Source of the DNA: Spirochaetota bacterium
GTDB lineage: Bacteria; Spirochaetota; UBA4802; UBA5550
Assembly (NCBI GenBank): GCA_017999915.1
Contig: JAGNKX010000006.1
Coordinates: 128,077 to 192,076, forward strand
Direction of reading: 5' to 3'
Length of the DNA: 64,000 nucleotides
The notes beneath the pieces were generated by a model that did no database searches, was not told the origin of the DNA, and saw only the letters and a list, made by a program, of their open reading frames with translations. This document shows positions 43,380 through 53,718 of this stretch, one piece after another. Every line of letters starts with the position of its first letter. The first letter of the stretch is position 1. The position numbers and the translations under genes are program-made.

Positions 43380-43408
43380 TTGACTTTTTCCCAATGATTC
43401 ATTATATA
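43380..43408 (+). promoter_or_regulatory. Promoter of the ArsR/Met-rich operon
   Basis: TTGACT (43380-43385), 17-bp spacer, TATATA (43403-43408), 32 bp before the ArsR start. Confidence 0.7.
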
Positions 43409-43426
43409 TAAGTTATCATTTATATA
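43405..43426. promoter_or_regulatory. ArsR-type operator
   Basis: Arms TATATAA (43405-43411) and TTATATA (43420-43426) flank an eight-base centre. It overlaps the -10, as is usual for ArsR/SmtB repression. Confidence 0.6.
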
Positions 43427-43439
43427 AACGGATATTTAT

Positions 43440-43784
43440 ATGAGTAAGAAAGTATATGCCGACATCGGCGTATTGCAGCTGATTTTCCAGACCCTGTCCG
43501 ATGCCAACAGGCTGACAATAATCAAATATATCAATGACAGCGAATGTTCGGTCAGCCAGATCGTGGAAGAGACGGGATTGTCCCAACCTCTCGTATCGCA
43601 TCACTTGAAAACATTGAGGGAACGGCAGATCCTTGAGACCGCCAGGAATGGTCCTTTTATATATTACCGCTTAAAAGATAAAAAATTACTGAAAATCTTC
43701 GATTCGATTTTAGAGGTTGTCGGTCCCATCGATGAAAGCAAGCTCGGCAAGCCATTCAGATGCGGACCAATGTCGTGTCGATGA
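43440..43784 (+). CDS. ArsR/SmtB-family metalloregulator
   Basis: The protein has 114 residues. Winged helix-turn-helix ~12-85: LQLIFQTLSDANRLTIIKYI, VSQIVEETGLSQPLVSHHLKTLRERQILETARNGPFIYYRL. Cys36 sits in the helix before the recognition helix; Cys108 and Cys113 lie in a C-terminal tail CGPMSC. This pattern could build a thiol metal site across the dimer, but the classic CVC of arsenic sensors is absent, so the metal may be other than As(III), such as Cu(I) or Ag(I). It heads an operon with a Met-rich protein 12 bp downstream. Confidence 0.9.
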   Translation: MSKKVYADIGVLQLIFQTLSDANRLTIIKYINDSECSVSQIVEETGLSQPLVSHHLKTLRERQILETARNGPFIYYRLKDKKLLKIFDSILEVVGPIDESKLGKPFRCGPMSCR

Positions 43785-43796
43785 CAGGGAGGAGAA

Positions 43797-44396
43797 ATGA
43801 GCATAAAAGATAAAATGATGGATTCAATGATGGGGAAGATGAGCGCCGAAGAAAAACGGCAGATGATGGAAGCGATGATGAGCAGGTTTTTTGATACTAT
43901 GACGAAGGAGGAAAAACAGAACATGATGCAGGCAATGATGGATAAATTCTTCGGGACCATGTCGGCTGAAGAGAAAAGGGAGATGATGAGCGGCATGATG
44001 CCGAAGATGATGGCGGGCATGATGGGCGGAGGCGGATCCCCCATGATGGGCATGATGAAAAACATGATGGGAAAAATGATGGGCGGAAAAAAGGAAGGCG
44101 ATGAGAAGGAAAGCGGCCCCATGGGATTCAATCCGATGGAAATGTGCCAGAAGATGATGATGAACATGGGAAAAACGAGCGAGATGGCGAGCTATGCCAC
44201 CCCGGAAGTGCGCGCGCTGTTTGAAGAATGGTCGGAACAAATAGAAAATGAGATCTACAATTACCTGAAGGAAACCGGGACGGTTGATCCTGATAACCTT
44301 GCCGAGCATTTCAAGCTTTCAAAAGACAGCATCAATTTCTTTTTGTCCAAGCTTGCGCAAAAGGGAAAAATCAAGCTGAAAGCCGAGAAAGCATAA
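43797..44396 (+). CDS. Methionine-rich protein with C-terminal winged-helix-like domain
   Basis: The protein has 199 residues, of which about 40 are Met, almost all in residues 1-140. The N-terminal half has three near-repeats of the form SAEEKRQMMEAMMSRFFDTM, then runs such as MMPKMMAGMMGGGGSPMMGMMKNMMGKMM. The last ~55 residues (NEIYNYLKETGTVDPDNLAEHFKLSKDSINFFLSKLAQKGKIKLKAE) look like a small winged helix. There is no signal peptide, so it is cytosolic. Met clusters bind Cu(I) or Ag(I) in known copper proteins; the ArsR neighbour supports a metal role. The middle resembles no family I know. Starts after GGAGG, 12 bp after the ArsR stop. Confidence 0.85.
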   Translation: MSIKDKMMDSMMGKMSAEEKRQMMEAMMSRFFDTMTKEEKQNMMQAMMDKFFGTMSAEEKREMMSGMMPKMMAGMMGGGGSPMMGMMKNMMGKMMGGKKEGDEKESGPMGFNPMEMCQKMMMNMGKTSEMASYATPEVRALFEEWSEQIENEIYNYLKETGTVDPDNLAEHFKLSKDSINFFLSKLAQKGKIKLKAEKA

Positions 44397-44963: not shown

Positions 44964-45680
44964 ATGAATAATTTCGGGAAAAAAATAATAATCTATGCTG
45001 CATTTGTCCTGGGGGCCGGATCATTGATTATGTTTTATATGTTCCTGTTCCTGGGTTCATTCACTCTTGTCAATTTGAATATGGGATTGCTCCCGGCGCT
45101 GGCCCTTGACGCCTTTCTTTCCATTCTTTTCTTTCTACAGCACAGCTTGTTGATAAGAAGGAATGTCCGTAATAGACTATCAAAAATAGTACCTGATCCC
45201 TACTATGGCGCGTTCTATGCGATAACATCCGGAGCAGCCTTGCTCATCATGATTCTGTTCTGGCAGCGTACGGCTGCCATCGCAAGCGCAGAAGGACTGA
45301 TCTACTGGCTGCTGCGATTATCATTTATCCTGTCCATGGCAGGGTTTTATTGGGGTGTAAAAGCCCTTGGCGCGTTTGATCCATTTGGTGTTGTGAAAAT
45401 AAAGCTCTCCATGAGGAACAGGGAGCTGAAAATTGTCCCTCTCGCCATAAGGGGGCCCTACCGGTGGGTGCGACACCCATTATATTTTTTCTCGCTTATA
45501 ATGATATGGGCCTGTCCCGATCTTGCGTTTGACAAACTGCTCTTCAATGTCATGTGGTCCCTGTGGATTTTTATTGCTACAATGCTTGAGGAGCGGGACC
45601 TGGTTCGTGAGTTTGGAAATGGATACCGTGAATATCAGAAAAAGGTGCCGATGCTGATCCCCTATAAGAAACCGTTATAA
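44964..45680 (+). CDS. Isoprenylcysteine carboxyl methyltransferase / NnrU-like membrane protein
   Basis: The protein has 238 residues with about six membrane segments. The C-terminal signature RGPYRWVRHPLYFFSLIMIW and EERDLVREFGNGYREYQKKVPMLIP is that of ICMT/PEMT-type membrane methyltransferases (SAM binding by the RHP and EE motifs) and NnrU relatives. The substrate, whether a lipid, thiol or quinone head, is unknown. A second gene of this superfamily lies at 47460-48029. It forms a two-gene unit with the membrane gene just upstream. Confidence 0.82.
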   Translation: MNNFGKKIIIYAAFVLGAGSLIMFYMFLFLGSFTLVNLNMGLLPALALDAFLSILFFLQHSLLIRRNVRNRLSKIVPDPYYGAFYAITSGAALLIMILFWQRTAAIASAEGLIYWLLRLSFILSMAGFYWGVKALGAFDPFGVVKIKLSMRNRELKIVPLAIRGPYRWVRHPLYFFSLIMIWACPDLAFDKLLFNVMWSLWIFIATMLEERDLVREFGNGYREYQKKVPMLIPYKKPL

Positions 45681-45953: not shown

Positions 45954-46544
45954 ATGCTCAGCTACAATGAAATACATGACAGCTATTATCAAAAAATATT
46001 GAGGTACCTGTCCCGTATCGTGGGGCAGGATGAGGCTGAGGATATTTCCCAGGAAGTATTCATAAAAATCAATAAAAGCCTCGATACGCTTCAGGATGAA
46101 AATAAGCTTACCTATTGGATTTATCGCGTTGCCCTCAACGCCGCCCGGGACCATATCAGAACGAAGAAATCGAAAGTACCCGTTGTCTCTATTGAGGACC
46201 TTGCAGGTTCGATGGACTCCGGATGCCACTCCAGGCTGAAAGAGTTTGCCGATAGCCGCGCCAAAACTCCTGAGGAAAAGCTGATAAAGGATGAAATGCT
46301 GCAGTGCTACATCGATTACGTTGAAAAACTGCCGGAAAAATATTACCAAATATATGTCCTCGATGAATTCGAGGGCTTTTCCAACCAGGAAATCGCCGAC
46401 AAGCTTTCAATAAGCCTGGATACCGTTAAGATCAGGCTCCACCGGGCCAGAAACGAGCTCAATGAGCTGCTGAGGAAAAACTGCAGTTGTTATTCCGATA
46501 AAAACGGCAATATCATGTGCGAGCCGTGCGAACCTAAAGAATAA
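45954..46544 (+). CDS. ECF sigma factor with cysteine-rich C-terminal tail
   Basis: The protein has 196 residues. Region 2 (~5-80): YYQKILRYLSRIVGQDEAEDISQEVFIKINKSL and LTYWIYRVALNAARDHIRTKK. Region 4 (~125-175): LPEKYYQIYVLDEFEGFSNQEIADKLSISLDTVKIRLHRARNEL. The last ~20 residues, KNCSCYSDKNGNIMCEPCEPKE, hold four Cys in CSC...CEPC form, a likely metal or thiol sensing tail of the kind that lets a sigma factor act without an anti-sigma partner. No anti-sigma gene is adjacent. It is followed by a run of tiny Cys proteins (46752-47429), which are its probable targets. Confidence 0.88.
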   Translation: MLSYNEIHDSYYQKILRYLSRIVGQDEAEDISQEVFIKINKSLDTLQDENKLTYWIYRVALNAARDHIRTKKSKVPVVSIEDLAGSMDSGCHSRLKEFADSRAKTPEEKLIKDEMLQCYIDYVEKLPEKYYQIYVLDEFEGFSNQEIADKLSISLDTVKIRLHRARNELNELLRKNCSCYSDKNGNIMCEPCEPKE

Positions 46545-47429: not shown

Positions 47430-47459
47430 CATTAAATAAATCGAGGAGAGGTGCGTGAG

Positions 47460-48029
47460 ATGTTACAGTATGGTATGCTGGCCGGTTTTATTTCATTCTC
47501 GATCGTTCTGGCGCTGTTCGTGATACGGATCGTTTCGAGGGGCATCAGCATTGTTGCCAGGCCGCCTATCAATCCGCTGGCATTTGTAACAGCCAAACTA
47601 TGCGCCTTTTCTTCATGCTTTTTCATCCCGGCCGGTATTATCCGGCCGGAGCTGAAATGGTATGAGGCGCCGGAATGGCTGGGCCTGACCGCATTGCTGC
47701 CGTTTTTCTCCGGGATAGTTATCGCGGCTGTGGCAATGAAAAAGCTGGGCGATGATCTTATCTTCGGACTTCCTGAAGGCTCTATAAGCTCCCTTAAAAC
47801 CGATGGGATCTTCAGGTTCAGCAGAAATCCTCTCTACCTCGGATTCATCCTGCTCATCCTGTCATCGTGCCTGATTACGCCGAATCCCTTCAATTTTGCG
47901 GCGGCAATCATTGCGATTCTCATTCATCACAGGATAATCCTGCAGGAGGAGAATTATCTGTTGTCCAGGCTCGGGGATAGGTATAAGGATTATATGAAAG
48001 CGACAGGGAGATATTTATTACGCATATAG
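47460..48029 (+). CDS. Isoprenylcysteine methyltransferase-like membrane protein (PEMT fold)
   Basis: The protein has 189 residues from the ATG at 47460, nine bases after GAGGAG; a GTG at 47451 is too close to the ribosome site. About five membrane segments. The C-terminal part TDGIFRFSRNPLYLGFILLILSS and LQEENYLLSRLGDRYKDYMKATGRYL carries the RNP/RHP-like and EE..YxxY motifs of ICMT/PEMT methyltransferases. Second member of this superfamily within 3 kb. It probably ends the operon of the mini-proteins. Substrate unknown; modification of a thiol or lipid is a plain guess. Confidence 0.82.
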   Translation: MLQYGMLAGFISFSIVLALFVIRIVSRGISIVARPPINPLAFVTAKLCAFSSCFFIPAGIIRPELKWYEAPEWLGLTALLPFFSGIVIAAVAMKKLGDDLIFGLPEGSISSLKTDGIFRFSRNPLYLGFILLILSSCLITPNPFNFAAAIIAILIHHRIILQEENYLLSRLGDRYKDYMKATGRYLLRI

Positions 48030-48085
48030 TGGAATTGGTATAATCAGCAGGAAGCGCAGGTCATAAATAATTATTCTTTATTTGC

Positions 48086-48119
48086 TTGACAATTATTGCA
48101 ATATTGGCAAAATTGTCAA
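48086..48119. promoter_or_regulatory. Operator of the arsenic-island ArsR
   Basis: TTGACAATT (48086-48094) and its exact complement AATTGTCAA (48111-48119) form a 9-bp inverted repeat. The first arm is also a perfect -35. TTGTCAAATTGTCA at 48508-48521, before the thioredoxin gene, repeats the half-site, so ArsR may also bind there. Confidence 0.7.
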
Positions 48120-48141
48120 ATATTCATTAAAGGATAATCAG

Positions 48142-48477
48142 ATGGATCCGAAAGTCTGGTCATTGTGCGAAGCCCGAGCCAATATAATCAAAGCAGTCTC
48201 TCATCCGGCGAGGCTATTTATAGTAGAGGAGCTGCAAAAGGGAGAGAGGTGCGTGTGTGAATTGACCGAAATGCTGGATTTCGATACATCCACTATATCG
48301 AAGCACCTGTCCATATTGAAAAATGCCGGCATCCTCGGCGACAGGAGAGATGGAACCAAAAGCATTTATTTTTTAAAGGTTCCCTGCATACTCAACTTCT
48401 TCGGGTGTATTGAGGAAGTGATGGAATCGAATCTTAAACAGCAGAATGAGATTCTCATGACCTGCAAGAAAAGGTAA
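48142..48477 (+). CDS. arsR: ArsR-family arsenic-responsive repressor
   Basis: The protein has 111 residues from the ATG at 48142. Winged helix ~10-85. GERCVCELTEMLDFDTSTISKHLSIL places Cys37 and Cys39 in the alpha3 CVC motif, the As(III)/Sb(III) site of ArsR proteins. Further Cys residues follow in PCILNFFGC and MTCKK. It heads the arsenic island and has a palindromic site at its promoter. Gap to the thioredoxin gene is 65 bp with a second half-site pair. Confidence 0.92.
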   Translation: MDPKVWSLCEARANIIKAVSHPARLFIVEELQKGERCVCELTEMLDFDTSTISKHLSILKNAGILGDRRDGTKSIYFLKVPCILNFFGCIEEVMESNLKQQNEILMTCKKR

Positions 48478-48542
48478 GTAAATTTTTTTAAAGTATTTAT
48501 GGCGATTTTGTCAAATTGTCATAATTAAGCTTTAGGAGGAAC

Positions 48543-48782
48543 ATGATGTTGCTGGAAATACTCGGAAGCGGCTGCGCCAAGTGCAAAAAACTCGAGGAGT
48601 TGACGAAAGAGGCGGTTGGTGAAATGGGAGTCGATGCTTTTGTAAATCATGTCACAGACATCAAGGTAATAATGAACTATGGCGTCATGACCACGCCAGC
48701 CCTGGTAGTTGACGGAGTGGTGAAGGTCGCCGGTAAAGTGCCGTCTAAAGATGAAATTAAAAAATTGATAAGCACTAAATAG
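48543..48782 (+). CDS. Small thioredoxin-fold protein (redox-active disulfide family)
   Basis: The protein has 79 residues. The CxxC motif GSGCAKC (Cys11/Cys14) opens the fold, and GVMTTPALVVDGVVKVAGKVPS holds the cis-Pro loop. This matches the MTH895-type mini-thioredoxins often found next to DUF318 permeases. It could reduce ArsC or feed electrons to the ArsF-like protein. Start after AGGAGGAAC. 11 bp before the permease. Confidence 0.88.
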   Translation: MMLLEILGSGCAKCKKLEELTKEAVGEMGVDAFVNHVTDIKVIMNYGVMTTPALVVDGVVKVAGKVPSKDEIKKLISTK

Positions 48783-48793
48783 AGGATAGATTC

Positions 48794-49873
48794 ATGAGCG
48801 AGTGCTGTACCGGGAATAATACGAGTCCAACCATTGACTCTCAAAACAATGAGAGAAAAATAAAGCTGACGGCCCTATTGCCGTTATTGCTCATCCCTGT
48901 TGGTATCGTTCTGTATATTTTTCTTGAAAGCGGTGTAAATTACATTGTCTATTCCTTGCTTGGATTGGACAAGACCTCGCATCTTACCGAAGCGATACGC
49001 TTTTTTCTGTTTGAAGTGCCCAAGGTCCTGCTGCTTCTGACATTCATCGTTTTTGTCGTTGGCATTATCCGTTCCTTTTTTTCACCGGAAAAAACACGCA
49101 AAGCCCTGGAAGGGAAGCCCCTCTTTGTTGGAAACATCATGGGAGCCACCCTCGGTATTGTAACGCCATTTTGTACCTGCTCCGCGATCCCGCTTTTTCT
49201 CGGATTCATGGAGGGCGGCATCCCCCTGGGTGTCACATTCTCCTTTCTGGTGGCGGCTCCCATGATCAATGAAGTCGCGCTCGTGCTCCTCTTCGGTCTG
49301 TTTGGATGGAAGACGGCTGTTTTATACGCCTCCACCGGCCTTATTATCGCGATACTGTCCGGCTGGATCATCGGTAAACTGAAAGTTCAGCGTTTTGTCG
49401 AGGATTGGGTTTATGAAATAAAGGCGGGGAAAATCGAGATCGAAGAAAGAAAAATAACATTCATTGAAAGAATACAGGCGGGATATCTTGCCGTAATAGA
49501 TATCGTCTCAAAGGTGTGGGTATATATCGTGATCGGGATTGCCGTGGGAGCGGGAATACACGGTTACGTTCCGGAGAATTTCATGGCGTCCATCATGGGA
49601 AAATCGGCATGGTGGTCTATACCGGTGGCTGTTCTCATCGGCGTGCCCATGTATTCGAACGCAGCCGGCATTATCCCGATAGTCCAGGCCCTTCTCGAAA
49701 AGGGCGCGTCCCTCGGGACCACGCTTGCCTTCATGATGTCGGTCATCGGGCTTTCGCTTCCGGAGATGATTATTTTAAAAAAGGTCCTTAAGCTGCCGCT
49801 GATCTTCATATTTGTCGGCATCGTTGCGGTGGGCATTATGATCGTTGGATATGTTTTCAATCTGATATATTAA
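48794..49873 (+). CDS. DUF318 family permease (ArsP-like organoarsenical exporter)
   Basis: The protein has 359 residues with about eight membrane helices. The hallmark GIVTPFCTCSAIPLFLGF (Cys127 and Cys129) and VAAPMINEVALVLLFGLFGW repeat with IGVPMYSNAAGIIPIVQALLEKG later. Characterised ArsP proteins of this family export trivalent methyl- and aromatic arsenicals. The N-terminal SECCTG adds two Cys. Co-transcribed with the mini-thioredoxin 11 bp upstream and the DGC protein 28 bp downstream. Confidence 0.88.
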   Translation: MSECCTGNNTSPTIDSQNNERKIKLTALLPLLLIPVGIVLYIFLESGVNYIVYSLLGLDKTSHLTEAIRFFLFEVPKVLLLLTFIVFVVGIIRSFFSPEKTRKALEGKPLFVGNIMGATLGIVTPFCTCSAIPLFLGFMEGGIPLGVTFSFLVAAPMINEVALVLLFGLFGWKTAVLYASTGLIIAILSGWIIGKLKVQRFVEDWVYEIKAGKIEIEERKITFIERIQAGYLAVIDIVSKVWVYIVIGIAVGAGIHGYVPENFMASIMGKSAWWSIPVAVLIGVPMYSNAAGIIPIVQALLEKGASLGTTLAFMMSVIGLSLPEMIILKKVLKLPLIFIFVGIVAVGIMIVGYVFNLIY

Positions 49874-49901
49874 ACTATATAGCAAAAAGGGGAGGATTAT
49901 T

Positions 49902-50300
49902 ATGGCTGATTGTTGTTCTGGCGGCGTAAAACTATTGTATTCATGCTCCGGCGCGGCCGATGTTGGCCAGATTGCGGACCAGGTTTCTCGAAAGCTCCGT
50001 GATAAGGGATTCGCGCGCCTTACCTGTCTTGCCGGTGTCGGAGCGGACCTTTCGGGCTTTGTTGAATCCGCCCGCGGCGCTGATCTGAACATTACCATTG
50101 ACGGCTGCGGGACCATGTGCGCGAAAAAAGCGCTCGAACGAGTCGGTGTTTCTGCTACCTCATATGTTCTGACTGATTTTGGCATTGAGAAGGGTAAAAC
50201 CCCTTTTACCGAGAAGATTGTGGCTGAATTGAGCGACAGGATCATGGGGCAGGGTGCGCCGATATCTGAAGCAAAGGCTTCGGGTTGCTCGTGCAGTTAG
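49902..50300 (+). CDS. DGC-domain putative zinc-binding protein
   Basis: The protein has 132 residues. It starts MADCCSGGVKLLYSCSGAADVGQIADQVSRKL, continues ITIDGCGTMCAKKALERVG (the DGC motif) and ends in SGCSCS. Three Cys clusters would make a thiolate metal site. Proteins of this family occur next to arsenic and thiol-stress genes; function is not established. It could be the partner that pairs with the ArsF-like protein in organoarsenical reduction, but this is inferred from position only. Confidence 0.82.
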   Translation: MADCCSGGVKLLYSCSGAADVGQIADQVSRKLRDKGFARLTCLAGVGADLSGFVESARGADLNITIDGCGTMCAKKALERVGVSATSYVLTDFGIEKGKTPFTEKIVAELSDRIMGQGAPISEAKASGCSCS

Positions 50301-50334
50301 ATCTTCTGATATGACATTATAAAAGGATTGCTTC

Positions 50335-50817
50335 ATGAAAATAAGAAGGATAGTGACTATTGTATTATCGATTTTTGTAGCTACTAGTATTGTCTACCTT
50401 GTCGCAACAGAAGTGCGAAAGCCGGATAAAACCGAAACAGCATCGGAAGGAACGCAACAAAATGCCGCGGCCATGGAAAACCATGCGATCACGGTCTATT
50501 ATTTTCATACAACGTTCCGGTGTCCAACCTGCCGGAAAATTGAGGCATTGACCGAATCGACGGTTAAGAACTTTTTTTCTGCGGAATTGGCGGAAAAGAA
50601 AATCATATGGAAGCCGGTAAATATTGAGCTGCCTGAAAACAGGCATTTTGCCGACGATTACAAGCTGTTCACAAAATCAGTGGTTATCGTTGATTCGGCT
50701 AGCGGCAAGCAGATACGATGGAAGAACCTGGATAAAATCTGGGAGCTGGTGCGGGATGAATCGGCTTTTACTTGTTATATTAAAAACGAGATAACAGGAT
50801 ATTTAAAGGGCATATGA
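50335..50817 (+). CDS. arsF: Membrane-anchored thioredoxin-like ArsF-family protein
   Basis: The protein has 160 residues. An N-terminal anchor (~5-25) and a Gln/Ala/Glu linker lead to a thioredoxin-like domain with YYFHTTFRCPTCRKIEALTE (Cys63/Cys66) and FTKSVVIVDSASGKQI. It matches the ArsF family named from the organoarsenical ArsEFG system, in which ArsE and ArsF reduce nitroaryl arsenicals and ArsG exports the amines. The stop overlaps the next start by 4 bp, so it is coupled to the ArsG-like permease. Confidence 0.82.
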   Translation: MKIRRIVTIVLSIFVATSIVYLVATEVRKPDKTETASEGTQQNAAAMENHAITVYYFHTTFRCPTCRKIEALTESTVKNFFSAELAEKKIIWKPVNIELPENRHFADDYKLFTKSVVIVDSASGKQIRWKNLDKIWELVRDESAFTCYIKNEITGYLKGI

Positions 50818-51512
50818 GCGAAGGAATATCATCCGGCTTGATTGCCGCCATCTGGCTGGGCATTCTCACGTCAATAAGCCCCTGTCCCCTTGCGACAAAC
50901 ATCGCCGCTGTCTCTTTTATCGGAAAAAACGCCGCTGAAGCAAAAAAGGTCTTTATCACCGGAACATTGTATCTGCTGGGAAGGGCGACCGCCTATGCCG
51001 CGCTTGCGGCGTTAATTGTCGCGAGCCTGCTTTCTATTCCGGCGGTGTCAAACTTTTTGCAGAGTTATATAAACAAGATACTCGGTCCGGTTCTCATCAT
51101 TGCCGGTATGCTTCTCATGGAGCTTGTAAGCCTTCCGGCCGGCAGAGGGACCGATACATCAAGGCTCCAGCGCCTTGCGGAAAAGAACCTTTTTGCCGCT
51201 TCCTTCGCGATGGGAATTATATTCGCTCTCGCCTTTTGTCCGGTATCAGCGGCATTGTTTTTCGGGAGTCTTATCCCTGTCGCTGTCCAACAACAATCGC
51301 CGGTCCTTCTCCCCGCTATTTATGGCGCCGGCACGGCCTTGCCGGTTTTATTCTTTGCGCTGGTGCTGGCTTTCGGTGCCAACTATCTATCAAAGGTTTT
51401 CAATGCCGTTTCCCGCGTCGAAGTGTGGGCGCGGAGAATTACCGGTGTGTTATTTATTTTGATAGGCGTATATTTCTGCCTCACCTACATCTTTAAAATA
51501 CAAATGTGGTAA
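50814..51512 (+). CDS. arsG: ArsG-family (CcdA-like) arsenical efflux permease
   Basis: The protein has 232 residues, about six membrane segments. The N-terminal GILTSISPCPLATNIAAVSFIG has the PCP of the CcdA/DsbD fold, and GIIFALAFCPVSAALFFGSLIP the second Cys. The ArsG family exports trivalent aminobenzyl arsenicals. Coupled by a 4-bp overlap to the ArsF-like gene, 14 bp before acr3. A plain CcdA role is less likely as no cytochrome-c maturation genes are near. Confidence 0.85.
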   Translation: MSEGISSGLIAAIWLGILTSISPCPLATNIAAVSFIGKNAAEAKKVFITGTLYLLGRATAYAALAALIVASLLSIPAVSNFLQSYINKILGPVLIIAGMLLMELVSLPAGRGTDTSRLQRLAEKNLFAASFAMGIIFALAFCPVSAALFFGSLIPVAVQQQSPVLLPAIYGAGTALPVLFFALVLAFGANYLSKVFNAVSRVEVWARRITGVLFILIGVYFCLTYIFKIQMW

Positions 51513-51526
51513 TGGAAGGTTGAATC

Positions 51527-52573
51527 ATGACAGAACAAGTATCCAGGAAACTTTCTTTTCTCGATCGCTTTCTGACACTGTGGATATTCCTCGCGATGTT
51601 CGCGGGTGTTTTTACCGGATATTTCTTTCCCGGCATCGTCGATTTCTGGAATCGGTTCCAGTCGGGAACGACCAATATACCGATTGCCATCGGCCTGATA
51701 TTGATGATGTACCCGCCTTTAGCCAAGGTCAAATACGAGGAGTTGGGCGATGTGTTTACCAACTGGAAGGTGCTCGGCCTTTCGCTCGTCCAGAACTGGA
51801 TCATCGGACCGGTGCTCATGTTCCTGTTGGCCATCGCGCTGCTTAACGGATATCCGGAATACATGGTGGGCCTCATCATGATCGGTCTTGCCCGCTGCAT
51901 AGCCATGGTCATCGTGTGGAACGACCTGGCGAGCGGCGATACGGAATACGCGGCAGGCCTGGTCGCCTTCAACAGCATCTTCCAGGTCCTGTTTTTCAGC
52001 GTGTACGCCTGGTTCTTTATTACCATCCTGCCGCCGCTTTTCGGCCTGAAGGGCAGCATCGTCGATATCACCATAGGACAGATCGCTAAAAGCGTTTTTA
52101 TCTACCTGGGCATACCCTTTATCGCGGGGATCATTACCCGTTTCGTTCTTCTTAAAGTCAAAACCAAAGAATGGTATCAAACGAAATTCATACCCAAGAT
52201 AAGCCCGATAACGCTGATCGCCCTGTTGTTCACCATCTTTGTCATGTTCAGCATGAAGGGCGAGTATATTGTGAAGATACCGATGGATGTCGTGCGCATC
52301 GCCATTCCGCTTTTGATTTACTTTATAGTGATGTTCATGGTCAGTTTCTTTATGAGCAAAAAGATCGGGGCCGGATACCCGGTGGCTGCGACTCTTTCAT
52401 TTACAGCGGCGAGCAACAACTTTGAGCTGGCCATTGCCGTGGCCGTAGCGGTCTTTGGTATAGGCTCCGGTGTGGCCTTTGCCGCAGTCATTGGGCCCCT
52501 CATCGAGGTGCCGGTCATGATAGGGCTGGTGAACGTGGCTCTTTATTTCAGAAAGAAGTATTTTGTATCTTAA
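51527..52573 (+). CDS. acr3: ACR3-type arsenite efflux transporter
   Basis: The protein has 348 residues with about ten membrane helices. [19 protein letters not shown] holds the essential Cys124 of the ACR3 family. Other family marks are [14 protein letters not shown] and [23 protein letters not shown]. It exports As(III) (some also Sb(III)) by proton antiport. The start follows GGAAGGT. An RNA-hairpin-like palindrome (52576-52595) separates it from the MtrA-like gene. Confidence 0.95.
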
Positions 52574-52575
52574 AG

Positions 52576-52595
52576 GCGAGGTCTCGTGACCTCGC
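52576..52595. repeat. Palindromic hairpin related to the 19447 element
   Basis: GCGAGGTC, TCGT, GACCTCGC. No T-run follows. It shares GCG-GGTC...GACC-CGC with the palindrome at 19447-19466. Confidence 0.65.
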
Positions 52596-52613
52596 ATTCC
52601 TGGAGTGCAATAA

Positions 52614-53291
52614 TTGTTAAAAGTTAAGCCACATCCGGATTATCCCTGTGAACCAGGGCGATATATCCGTGGCAATGATTTTTCTCCGGCAGCGGTAGTC
52701 ATTATCCTTAACACTGATGAGGATAAAATCCCTCCGGAAATTGAGGCCCTGGTGCGGGCAGGGGCTGAAACCGGAGCCGCCCTGTCAGGCACGGTGCAGA
52801 CGCCGAACATAGGCTTCGAGAAAATGATATGCAACATAGTGGCAAATCCGAATATACGCTATATCGTGCTTGGAGGACCGGAATCTGACGGTCATCAGAC
52901 TGGATCCGCCTTGAAATCCCTGCTTGCAAATGGCATTGACGAGAAGAAGAAAATCATTGGCACAGAGGCTATGCATGCGTGCCTCTACAATATCCCCATG
53001 GAATTCATCGAGCGATTCAGAAAACAGATAGCCCTTATTGACCTTCAGTTTCAGGGAGACCCAAACCTTATTCGCAAAGCGGTATGGTCCTGTTTCCAGG
53101 AAACACCGGTGGATTTTATGGGACATGATGTGCATGATCCCGGCGCTTATCCTGAGGAACCTCTTGCCGGGAAATTGACCTGGCAGGTCACTCAGCCCTG
53201 GTCGGTTCCCTGTGATAAGGGGGAACAAGATGCTGTTAATAAAGCAAAAGAGCTTATGGAACGGCTCAGGAAGAGAAATACAAATGAGTGA
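52614..53291 (+). CDS. MtrA-like corrinoid-binding-domain protein in the arsenic island
   Basis: The protein has 225 residues from a TTG at 52614 with GGAGTG upstream; no better start exists. It follows the MtrA fold closely: PNIGFEKMICNIVANPNIRYIVLGGPESDGHQTGSALKSLLANGIDEKKKIIG is the cobamide-binding region of tetrahydromethanopterin S-methyltransferase subunit A, with His93 at the place of the cobalt-binding His. The C-terminal membrane helix of methanogen MtrA is absent, so it is soluble. It lies between acr3 and arsC, whose start overlaps its stop. A corrinoid methyl carrier for arsenic methylation or demethylation is a tempting but unproven role. Confidence 0.85.
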   Translation: MLKVKPHPDYPCEPGRYIRGNDFSPAAVVIILNTDEDKIPPEIEALVRAGAETGAALSGTVQTPNIGFEKMICNIVANPNIRYIVLGGPESDGHQTGSALKSLLANGIDEKKKIIGTEAMHACLYNIPMEFIERFRKQIALIDLQFQGDPNLIRKAVWSCFQETPVDFMGHDVHDPGAYPEEPLAGKLTWQVTQPWSVPCDKGEQDAVNKAKELMERLRKRNTNE

Positions 53292-53718
53292 AAATAAATT
53301 ACAGATTTTATTCCTCTGCACCGGCAACTCCTGCAGGAGCCAGATGGCCGAGGGGCTGGCGCGTCATTTCAAGGGCGCCATCATGGAAGCGTGCTCCGCA
53401 GGCACGGAGCCGAAAGGCCTTGACCCGCGCGCTGTTGCGGTCATGGCGGAAATCGGCATAGATATATCCCGGCAGCGATCCAAGCATGTAAATGAATTTG
53501 CCGGCCGGGAATTTGATTTTGTGATTACCCTGTGCGGCGGGGCGCAGGAAACCTGCCCTTTCTTCCCGGGAAAGACAAAGACAATGCACGCGGGTTTCGA
53601 TGATCCGCCCGAACTCGCCCGTAGCGCCGCATCTGAAGAAGAGGCCCTCGGTCATTACCGGCGCGTCCGTGACGAGATACGGGTGTTCATTATGAAGTTC
53701 GAAGAGTTGTCGGCTTGA
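53284..53718 (+). CDS. arsC: Arsenate reductase, thioredoxin-coupled LMW-phosphatase type
   Basis: The protein has 144 residues from the ATG at 53284, overlapping the upstream stop by 8 bp. The P-loop LCTGNSCRS gives Cys12 and Arg18, the redox pair is Cys84/Cys91 (TLCGGAQETCPFF), and the DDPPE loop (~106-110) supplies the acid. All residues of the pI258-type ArsC mechanism are present. It makes As(III) for ACR3. Possible reductants are the mini-thioredoxin and ArsF-like proteins of the same island. Convergent with the flavin-reductase gene. Confidence 0.95.
   Translation: MSENKLQILFLCTGNSCRSQMAEGLARHFKGAIMEACSAGTEPKGLDPRAVAVMAEIGIDISRQRSKHVNEFAGREFDFVITLCGGAQETCPFFPGKTKTMHAGFDDPPELARSAASEEEALGHYRRVRDEIRVFIMKFEELSA

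Follow-up and report, generated by a model that had tools for sequence, protein, structure and literature searches.

The question raised by this locus is what a protein exceptionally rich in methionine might do directly downstream of an ArsR-type repressor gene. Both open reading frames were confirmed in the window (the whole 64-kb stretch of DNA that was analysed), and the features discussed below are the following, in window positions:

43380-43408, + strand: sigma-70-like promoter, TTGACT (43380-43385), 17-nt spacer, TATATA (43403-43408), by sequence inspection
43406-43425, + strand: candidate operator ATATAAGT-TATC-ATTTATAT, 0 mismatches to ATATNAGYNNNNRYTNATAT
43422-43441, + strand: second, overlapping operator copy ATATAAAC-GGAT-ATTTATAT, from half-site spacing and matches at Sec-type loci
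43440-43784, + strand: ArsR/SmtB repressor, 114 aa, TsoR-like, C-terminal tail RCGPMSCR (PF01022, NF045707, alignment A3)
43787-43794, + strand: ribosome-binding site GGGAGGAG of the Met-rich gene, by sequence inspection
43797-44396, + strand: Met-rich protein, 199 aa
43797-44081, + strand: Met-rich helical part, residues 1-95, repeats MMxxMM(S/D)(R/K)FFxxM(T/S)xEEK, low-confidence fold
44124-44171, + strand: GFNPMEMCQKMMMNMG, residues 110-125, P-x-x-M-C motif (HHalign, conservation)
44190-44393, + strand: winged-helix-like C-terminal domain, residues 132-199, Met-free (Pfam, NCBIfam, HHalign, AlphaFold, PDB matches)

The ArsR gene is followed after a gap of 12 bp by the Met-rich gene, as an earlier note on this DNA had stated, and this gap holds the strong ribosome-binding site. 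The note's view of a cytosolic Met-rich protein in one operon with ArsR is supported. In the interval 43782-43796 the two genes share a frame with a TGA alone between them, and the genome has a tRNA-Sec. A fusion of ArsR and the Met-rich protein via this TGA read as selenocysteine was rejected, since read-through is unlikely because of the strong ribosome-binding site and since other loci show TAA, TAG or a different frame at this point.

All 40 methionines of the Met-rich protein fall within residues 1-131 (30.5%) and none within residues 132-199, while the second-highest Met content among the window's 56 main ORFs is 6.7% (median 3.1%). The N-terminal part contains eight MMxxMM motifs, against a shuffle mean of 1.0 and with eight reached in 2 of 20,000 shuffles, so that the earlier description of about 40 methionines in clustered repeats was borne out. 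Met-Met spacings have maxima at 4, 8 and 20, which corresponds to one helix face within a 20-residue repeat. Helices were predicted at residues 3-13, 17-33, 37-53, 57-76 and 82-95, and AlphaFold returned helical hairpins over residues 3-95 with a pLDDT of about 50-84 (whole-protein pTM 0.39); modelled alone, the Met-rich part reached a pLDDT of 64 and a pTM of 0.28.

The C-terminal domain, in turn, matched Pfam FeoC (PF09012) with 25.3 bits (gathering cut-off 21) over residues 152-197 only, and was modelled by AlphaFold as a helical, winged-helix-like fold with a pLDDT of about 90. Matches in the PDB were confined to residues 141-199 and comprised Zalpha, FeoC, ArsR-like and many more winged helices, in keeping with the winged-helix-like C-terminus claimed earlier. 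Zalpha domains headed the fold list (Z 9.4), with FeoC (PDB 4awx) at Z 7.8; because the winged-helix fold is widespread, such matches carry little information on function. A Z-DNA role was rejected, as Tyr177, Pro-Pro and Trp195 of ADAR1 Zalpha have no counterpart in the window domain. By themselves, the Pfam and PDB sequence searches led to nothing beyond a FeoC-like label.

A closer relation emerged with TsoA, which together with TsoR is listed for Tso, a three-selenoprotein operon credited to Haft and Tolstoy 2025 (PMC13188914). Residues 110-189 of the window protein matched positions 64-143 of the NCBIfam TsoA profile (NF045695) with 77.2 bits (E 1.5e-21, cut-off 170), and HHalign of the window protein plus an Aminicenantes relative against 30 TsoA proteins gave, for the C-terminal part, a probability of 99% (E 2.2e-18, 35% identity over 85 columns). 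This alignment begins at GFNPMEMC in the window protein and GVDPTQMC in TsoA, and the P-x-x-M-C segment, in which the sole Cys of the window protein sits, is the equivalent of GVDPTQMCQ in TsoA, indicating homology between the C-terminal domains of the two proteins. In TsoA the same Met-Cys site is preceded by the selenocysteine motif LULAxC, and at this place the window protein has a Met cluster. The Met-rich N-terminal part and the TsoA N-terminus aligned with an HHalign probability of 4%, for which we claim no homology, and the replacement of Sec by Met is therefore positional. When Sec-type TsoA was sampled in the phylum of the genome that carries L020, matches were found in 45 of 395 genomes, 32 of them with a match above the cut-off; the above-cut-off matches, and most others, contain one in-frame TGA, and all 30 sampled Sec-type loci have an ArsR gene directly upstream on the same strand.

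The window ArsR itself scored 53.8 bits against PF01022 (cut-off 22) and 77.8 bits against NF033788 (cut-off 55), and reached 91.7 bits with the TsoR profile NF045707, under its cut-off of 115. Read by eye from the alignment, the position of the arsenic CVC motif is SVS, with Cys36 just ahead and two further cysteines, Cys108 and Cys113, in the tail, which agrees with the earlier claim of an ArsR without CVC that has Cys elsewhere. Candidate metal ligands are Cys36, Cys108, Cys113 and Met111. Tails of Met-type ArsRs mostly contain Cys and/or Met (CCPPWW, CPPM, SCG, CGPMSC), and the sampled Sec-type TsoR tails, unlike most of these, have no such Cys or Met.

Upstream of the pair, the promoter at 43380-43408 was left unreported by a consensus promoter scan because its final -10 base is A; relatives have TTGACA in the corresponding region, with a -10 box at the equivalent place after it. 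Just past the -35 box of Met-type ArsR genes lies a 20-bp palindrome, ATATNAGY-N4-RYTNATAT, a pattern derived from the window, L013, L016, L020 and L082-L086. Outside this derivation set it recurred with 0-1 mismatch in L022, L026, L031 and L080 and exactly in L081, and it was not seen upstream in L018 and L027. With at most 1 mismatch it was also present in 15 of 30 sampled Sec-type tsoR upstream regions, and it was matched by none of 60 shuffles per region; likewise, 0 of 2000 dinucleotide shuffles of the window promoter stretch held it. The half-sites in the window start at 43406, 43422 and 43438, 16 nt apart, and the two overlapping copies span the -10 box and the ArsR start, the second being of the type (ATATAAAC-N4-ATTTATAT) that forms the operators at the Sec-type tsoR loci L062 and L070. 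In the whole 5.46-Mb genome the exact operator has a single match, ahead of the window pair, and sites with at most 1 mismatch were at control level genome-wide (23 versus 28), giving no sign of a wider regulon. Because the exact operator occurs once in this genome, ArsR and the Met-rich gene seem to form a two-gene regulon, and because of the operator layout over its own promoter, ArsR may well repress itself.

Taken together, we favour, with a probability of about 0.6, the reading that the pair would be a selenium-free, Met-based counterpart of TsoR-TsoA, comprising a cytosolic soft-metal(loid) binding protein under ArsR control. ArsR on the operator over its own promoter would keep both genes off, and soft metal or metalloid ions entering the cell would make it release the DNA, probably via its Cys/Met tail. 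The Met-rich protein would then be made and would serve in the cytosol as a sponge or chaperone for soft metal(loid) ions, holding them by thioethers on its N-terminal helix faces and at its one Met-Cys site.

The same layout might instead accommodate a second regulator or co-repressor, whose winged-helix end would join ArsR on the operator, with metal sensing left to the Met part. Small second proteins in metal-controlled operons are represented by ArsD and MerD, in ArsR-ArsD and MerR-MerD pairs. Besides its winged-helix-like C-terminus, the Met-rich protein is strictly co-encoded with ArsR, two proteins would fit on the three half-sites at their 16-nt spacing, and, with sampled Sec-type TsoR proteins having no Cys tail, sensing could fall to the partner. 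However, the net charge of the C-terminal domain is 0 to -8 in every member examined (-2 in the window protein, mostly -3 to -8 in the Sec type), compared with +2 for the ArsR winged helix, its recognition-helix residues are variable, and the Met capacity seems beyond the needs of a sensor, so that we regard this explanation as unlikely. Being acidic or neutral, the domain, which is common to TsoA, most likely serves dimerisation or docking instead of DNA binding, and the possible DNA-binding end proposed by the earlier note is accordingly doubtful.

A scan of genome contigs with the single protein gave no match; an alignment-based genome scan yielded 17 loci, 16 with the C-terminal domain and one (L032) with the Met repeat only, and further loci came from genome searches plus one Thauera plasmid. 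Homologues occur in Aminicenantes, Acidobacteriota, Myxococcota/Desulfobacterota, Acidithiobacillus, Halomonas, Thauera and others. Met-type members have about 22-38% Met ahead of the C-terminal part versus 0-4% within it, and nearly all keep the Pro-x-x-Met-Cys motif (L081 is without the Cys). Over 15 sequences (alignment A2), M71, M84, M87, M90, M91, P113, M114, M116 and C117 are conserved at 90% or more. Met-richness persists across phyla, and with M84, M87, M90, M91, M114 and M116 among the conserved columns, the earlier note's first ground for refutation, Met positions that vary among homologues, does not apply. At 16 loci of the Met or hybrid type, an ArsR gene lies upstream within about 1.2 kb on the same strand. 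CadR takes the place of ArsR in the Thauera type, and at a few loci no ArsR turned up within the retrieved sequence.

The long EEK repeats of the window protein are also found in L016, L026 and L032, with 17 invariant columns, mostly Met, over the repeats of these four. In L026 they form a separate 86-aa gene immediately ahead of the homologue, as if the fusion seen in the window had been divided into two genes, and in L032 they belong to a Roseovarius protein with a different C-terminus. These stand-alone Met-repeat proteins (L026:5640-5900, L032:5998-6507; MMxxMM..FFxxMTxEEK), built from the same module as the window protein, have no match in Pfam or NCBIfam. Within the window's own family, L012 (1420-1752) encodes a 110-aa relative on a very long branch, with the domain present and no Met cluster or Cys, which adjoins an RnfB-like gene (by eye).

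Genes adjoining the relatives include a copper P-type ATPase (L029), Zn/Cd-type P-ATPases (L025, L083), CadR (L015), MerA with MerT/MerP-like proteins (L017), a MerR/CueR-like regulator (L086), an ArsM-like protein (L085), SO_0444/SaoE-type efflux-like proteins (L018, L020) and GDCCVxC-type proteins (L015 by profile, L027 and L029 by eye), besides further methyltransferases, CMD and SHOCT proteins and VTT-domain proteins. Their common theme is soft metals and metalloids, and the soft-metal context proposed earlier is hence supported; the Cu(I)/Ag(I) specificity proposed with it is not, as the neighbours indicate Cu, Cd/Zn/Pb, Hg and As alike, and with such mixed contexts no single ligand is indicated. 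On the Thauera plasmid pTX1, a secreted-looking Met-rich protein (L015:4719-5231; MMGGPMWG..., MMMDQMMQHQQWM) lies by a heavy-metal P-type ATPase and CadR. In the window, the closest resistance genes form an arsenic cluster (48082-53718) about 4 kb downstream of the pair and without its operator, consisting of an ArsR with CVC, a SaoE/SO_0444-like permease, a DGC-domain protein, ArsG (274.6 bits, cut-off 200), Acr3, ArsC and a thioredoxin-like protein (by eye). Between pair and cluster lie two membrane methyltransferase-like genes (44964-45680 and 47451-48029), one MddA-like (112 bits, cut-off 270) and one isoprenylcysteine-methyltransferase-like, with an ECF sigma factor gene (45954-46544) between them.

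These neighbourhoods also bear on whether the methionines are sacrificed to reactive oxidants (species of chlorine, bromine or selenium) and then repaired by methionine sulfoxide reductase, as in MrpX, a periplasmic Met-rich oxidant sink. The very high Met content would suit such a role, and MrpX is named alongside 'methionine-rich' in PMC4623255 and PMC8315932. However, inspection by eye showed no signal peptide on the window protein and no methionine sulfoxide reductase next to the listed relatives, their neighbours are ArsR, P-type ATPase and Mer/Cad genes and not oxidant systems, and both the MMxxMM face patterning and the conserved Cys argue against a sink, making this explanation quite improbable.

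At three loci in two genomes, a Met cluster and an in-frame UGA next to the Met-Cys motif seem to be combined, and each corresponds to a probable unannotated hybrid selenoprotein:

L084:3980-4348, minus strand: probable hybrid selenoprotein
L085:3903-4262: probable hybrid selenoprotein
L086:3736-4095: probable hybrid selenoprotein

With TGA read as Sec, they read MEEKGCGPGMGMEMMKKM..GGxMLPMVERU-MQMCEQM, followed by the domain, and they shrink to 86-aa ORFs if read only up to the TGA. A stem-loop lies about 20 nt past the UGA, at which Sec would presumably be incorporated. Their anatomy is a short Met-rich front, then UGA-MQMC, then the TsoA-type C-terminal domain, in an operon of the order ArsR, VTT-domain protein, hybrid gene, SHOCT protein and ArsM-like methyltransferase. 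In a rough tree (90 columns), Sec-type TsoA formed its own branch (100/100) and the hybrids fell within the Met-type branch. The predicted Met-rich amphipathic helices might also point to a chaperone that holds hydrophobic peptides in a Met-lined groove, as the Sgt2 C domain and the SRP M domain do (a Met-rich helical hand is described for such a chaperone type in PMC8010706). Such a chaperone is highly improbable in view of the ArsR/metal-resistance neighbourhoods, the Sec and Cys that relatives have at the same position, and the short Met stretch plus Sec of the hybrids, which is too little for a groove. A more far-reaching reading, somewhat less likely than not, places the protein in a family in which a common ArsR operator governs one soft-ligand site that is built in three interchangeable ways (selenocysteine/cysteine, Met clusters, or the two combined); if so, a cytosolic thioether-based metal(loid) store would stand in place of a selenoprotein.

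Overall, the Met-rich cytosolic protein, the ArsR operon and the winged-helix-like end of the earlier note stand, its possible DNA-binding end is doubtful and its Cu(I)/Ag(I) specificity is not supported; new with respect to it are the kinship with the selenoprotein pair TsoR-TsoA and the common operator.

Among known systems, FeoC shares the winged-helix-like fold, but other winged helices match the window domain equally well or better, and the window protein has an added Met-rich part, no feoAB context (its neighbours being ArsR and unrelated genes) and no FeoC-type Cys cluster (residues 118-199 are without Cys). The ArsR-ArsD and MerR-MerD pairs likewise place a regulator and a small partner protein together in an operon under metal control, but ArsD has Cys ligands where the window protein has Met, and no sequence relation was seen. 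Thioether-based metal-binding proteins are known mainly from the periplasm and membranes, and a cytosolic one would be added if our reading is true. In this proposed role the protein would resemble Csp3, a cytosolic copper storage protein (PMC5171941), as a soft-metal store in the cytosol whose helices carry their sulfur ligands along one face. Csp proteins, however, carry Cys lining a four-helix bundle, whereas the window protein has one Cys and would use Met, and the fold of its Met part is predicted with low confidence.

Compared with TsoR-TsoA, the window protein has a Met-rich repeat N-terminus and neither selenocysteine nor LULAxC (no UGA lies inside its ORF), the window ArsR has a Cys/Met tail, and no TsoB/TsoC partner was recognised beside the pair; because Sec is absent and both proteins score below the family cut-offs, we did not file the pair as TsoR-TsoA. 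Nevertheless, the two systems are alike in the C-terminal domain, the Met-Cys site (GxxPxxMC), the upstream ArsR/TsoR-like regulator, the operator type common to tsoR promoters and the small cytosolic protein, and the pair is probably a Met-type relative working much like TsoR-TsoA. Selenoproteins are usually compared with their cysteine forms; the widespread relative of the selenoprotein pair seen here has Met clusters ahead of the common domain, along with apparent hybrids and the same operator. This offers a testable route to Tso function: should the Met form prove to bind a defined metal, a related ion is probably what the Sec form deals with.
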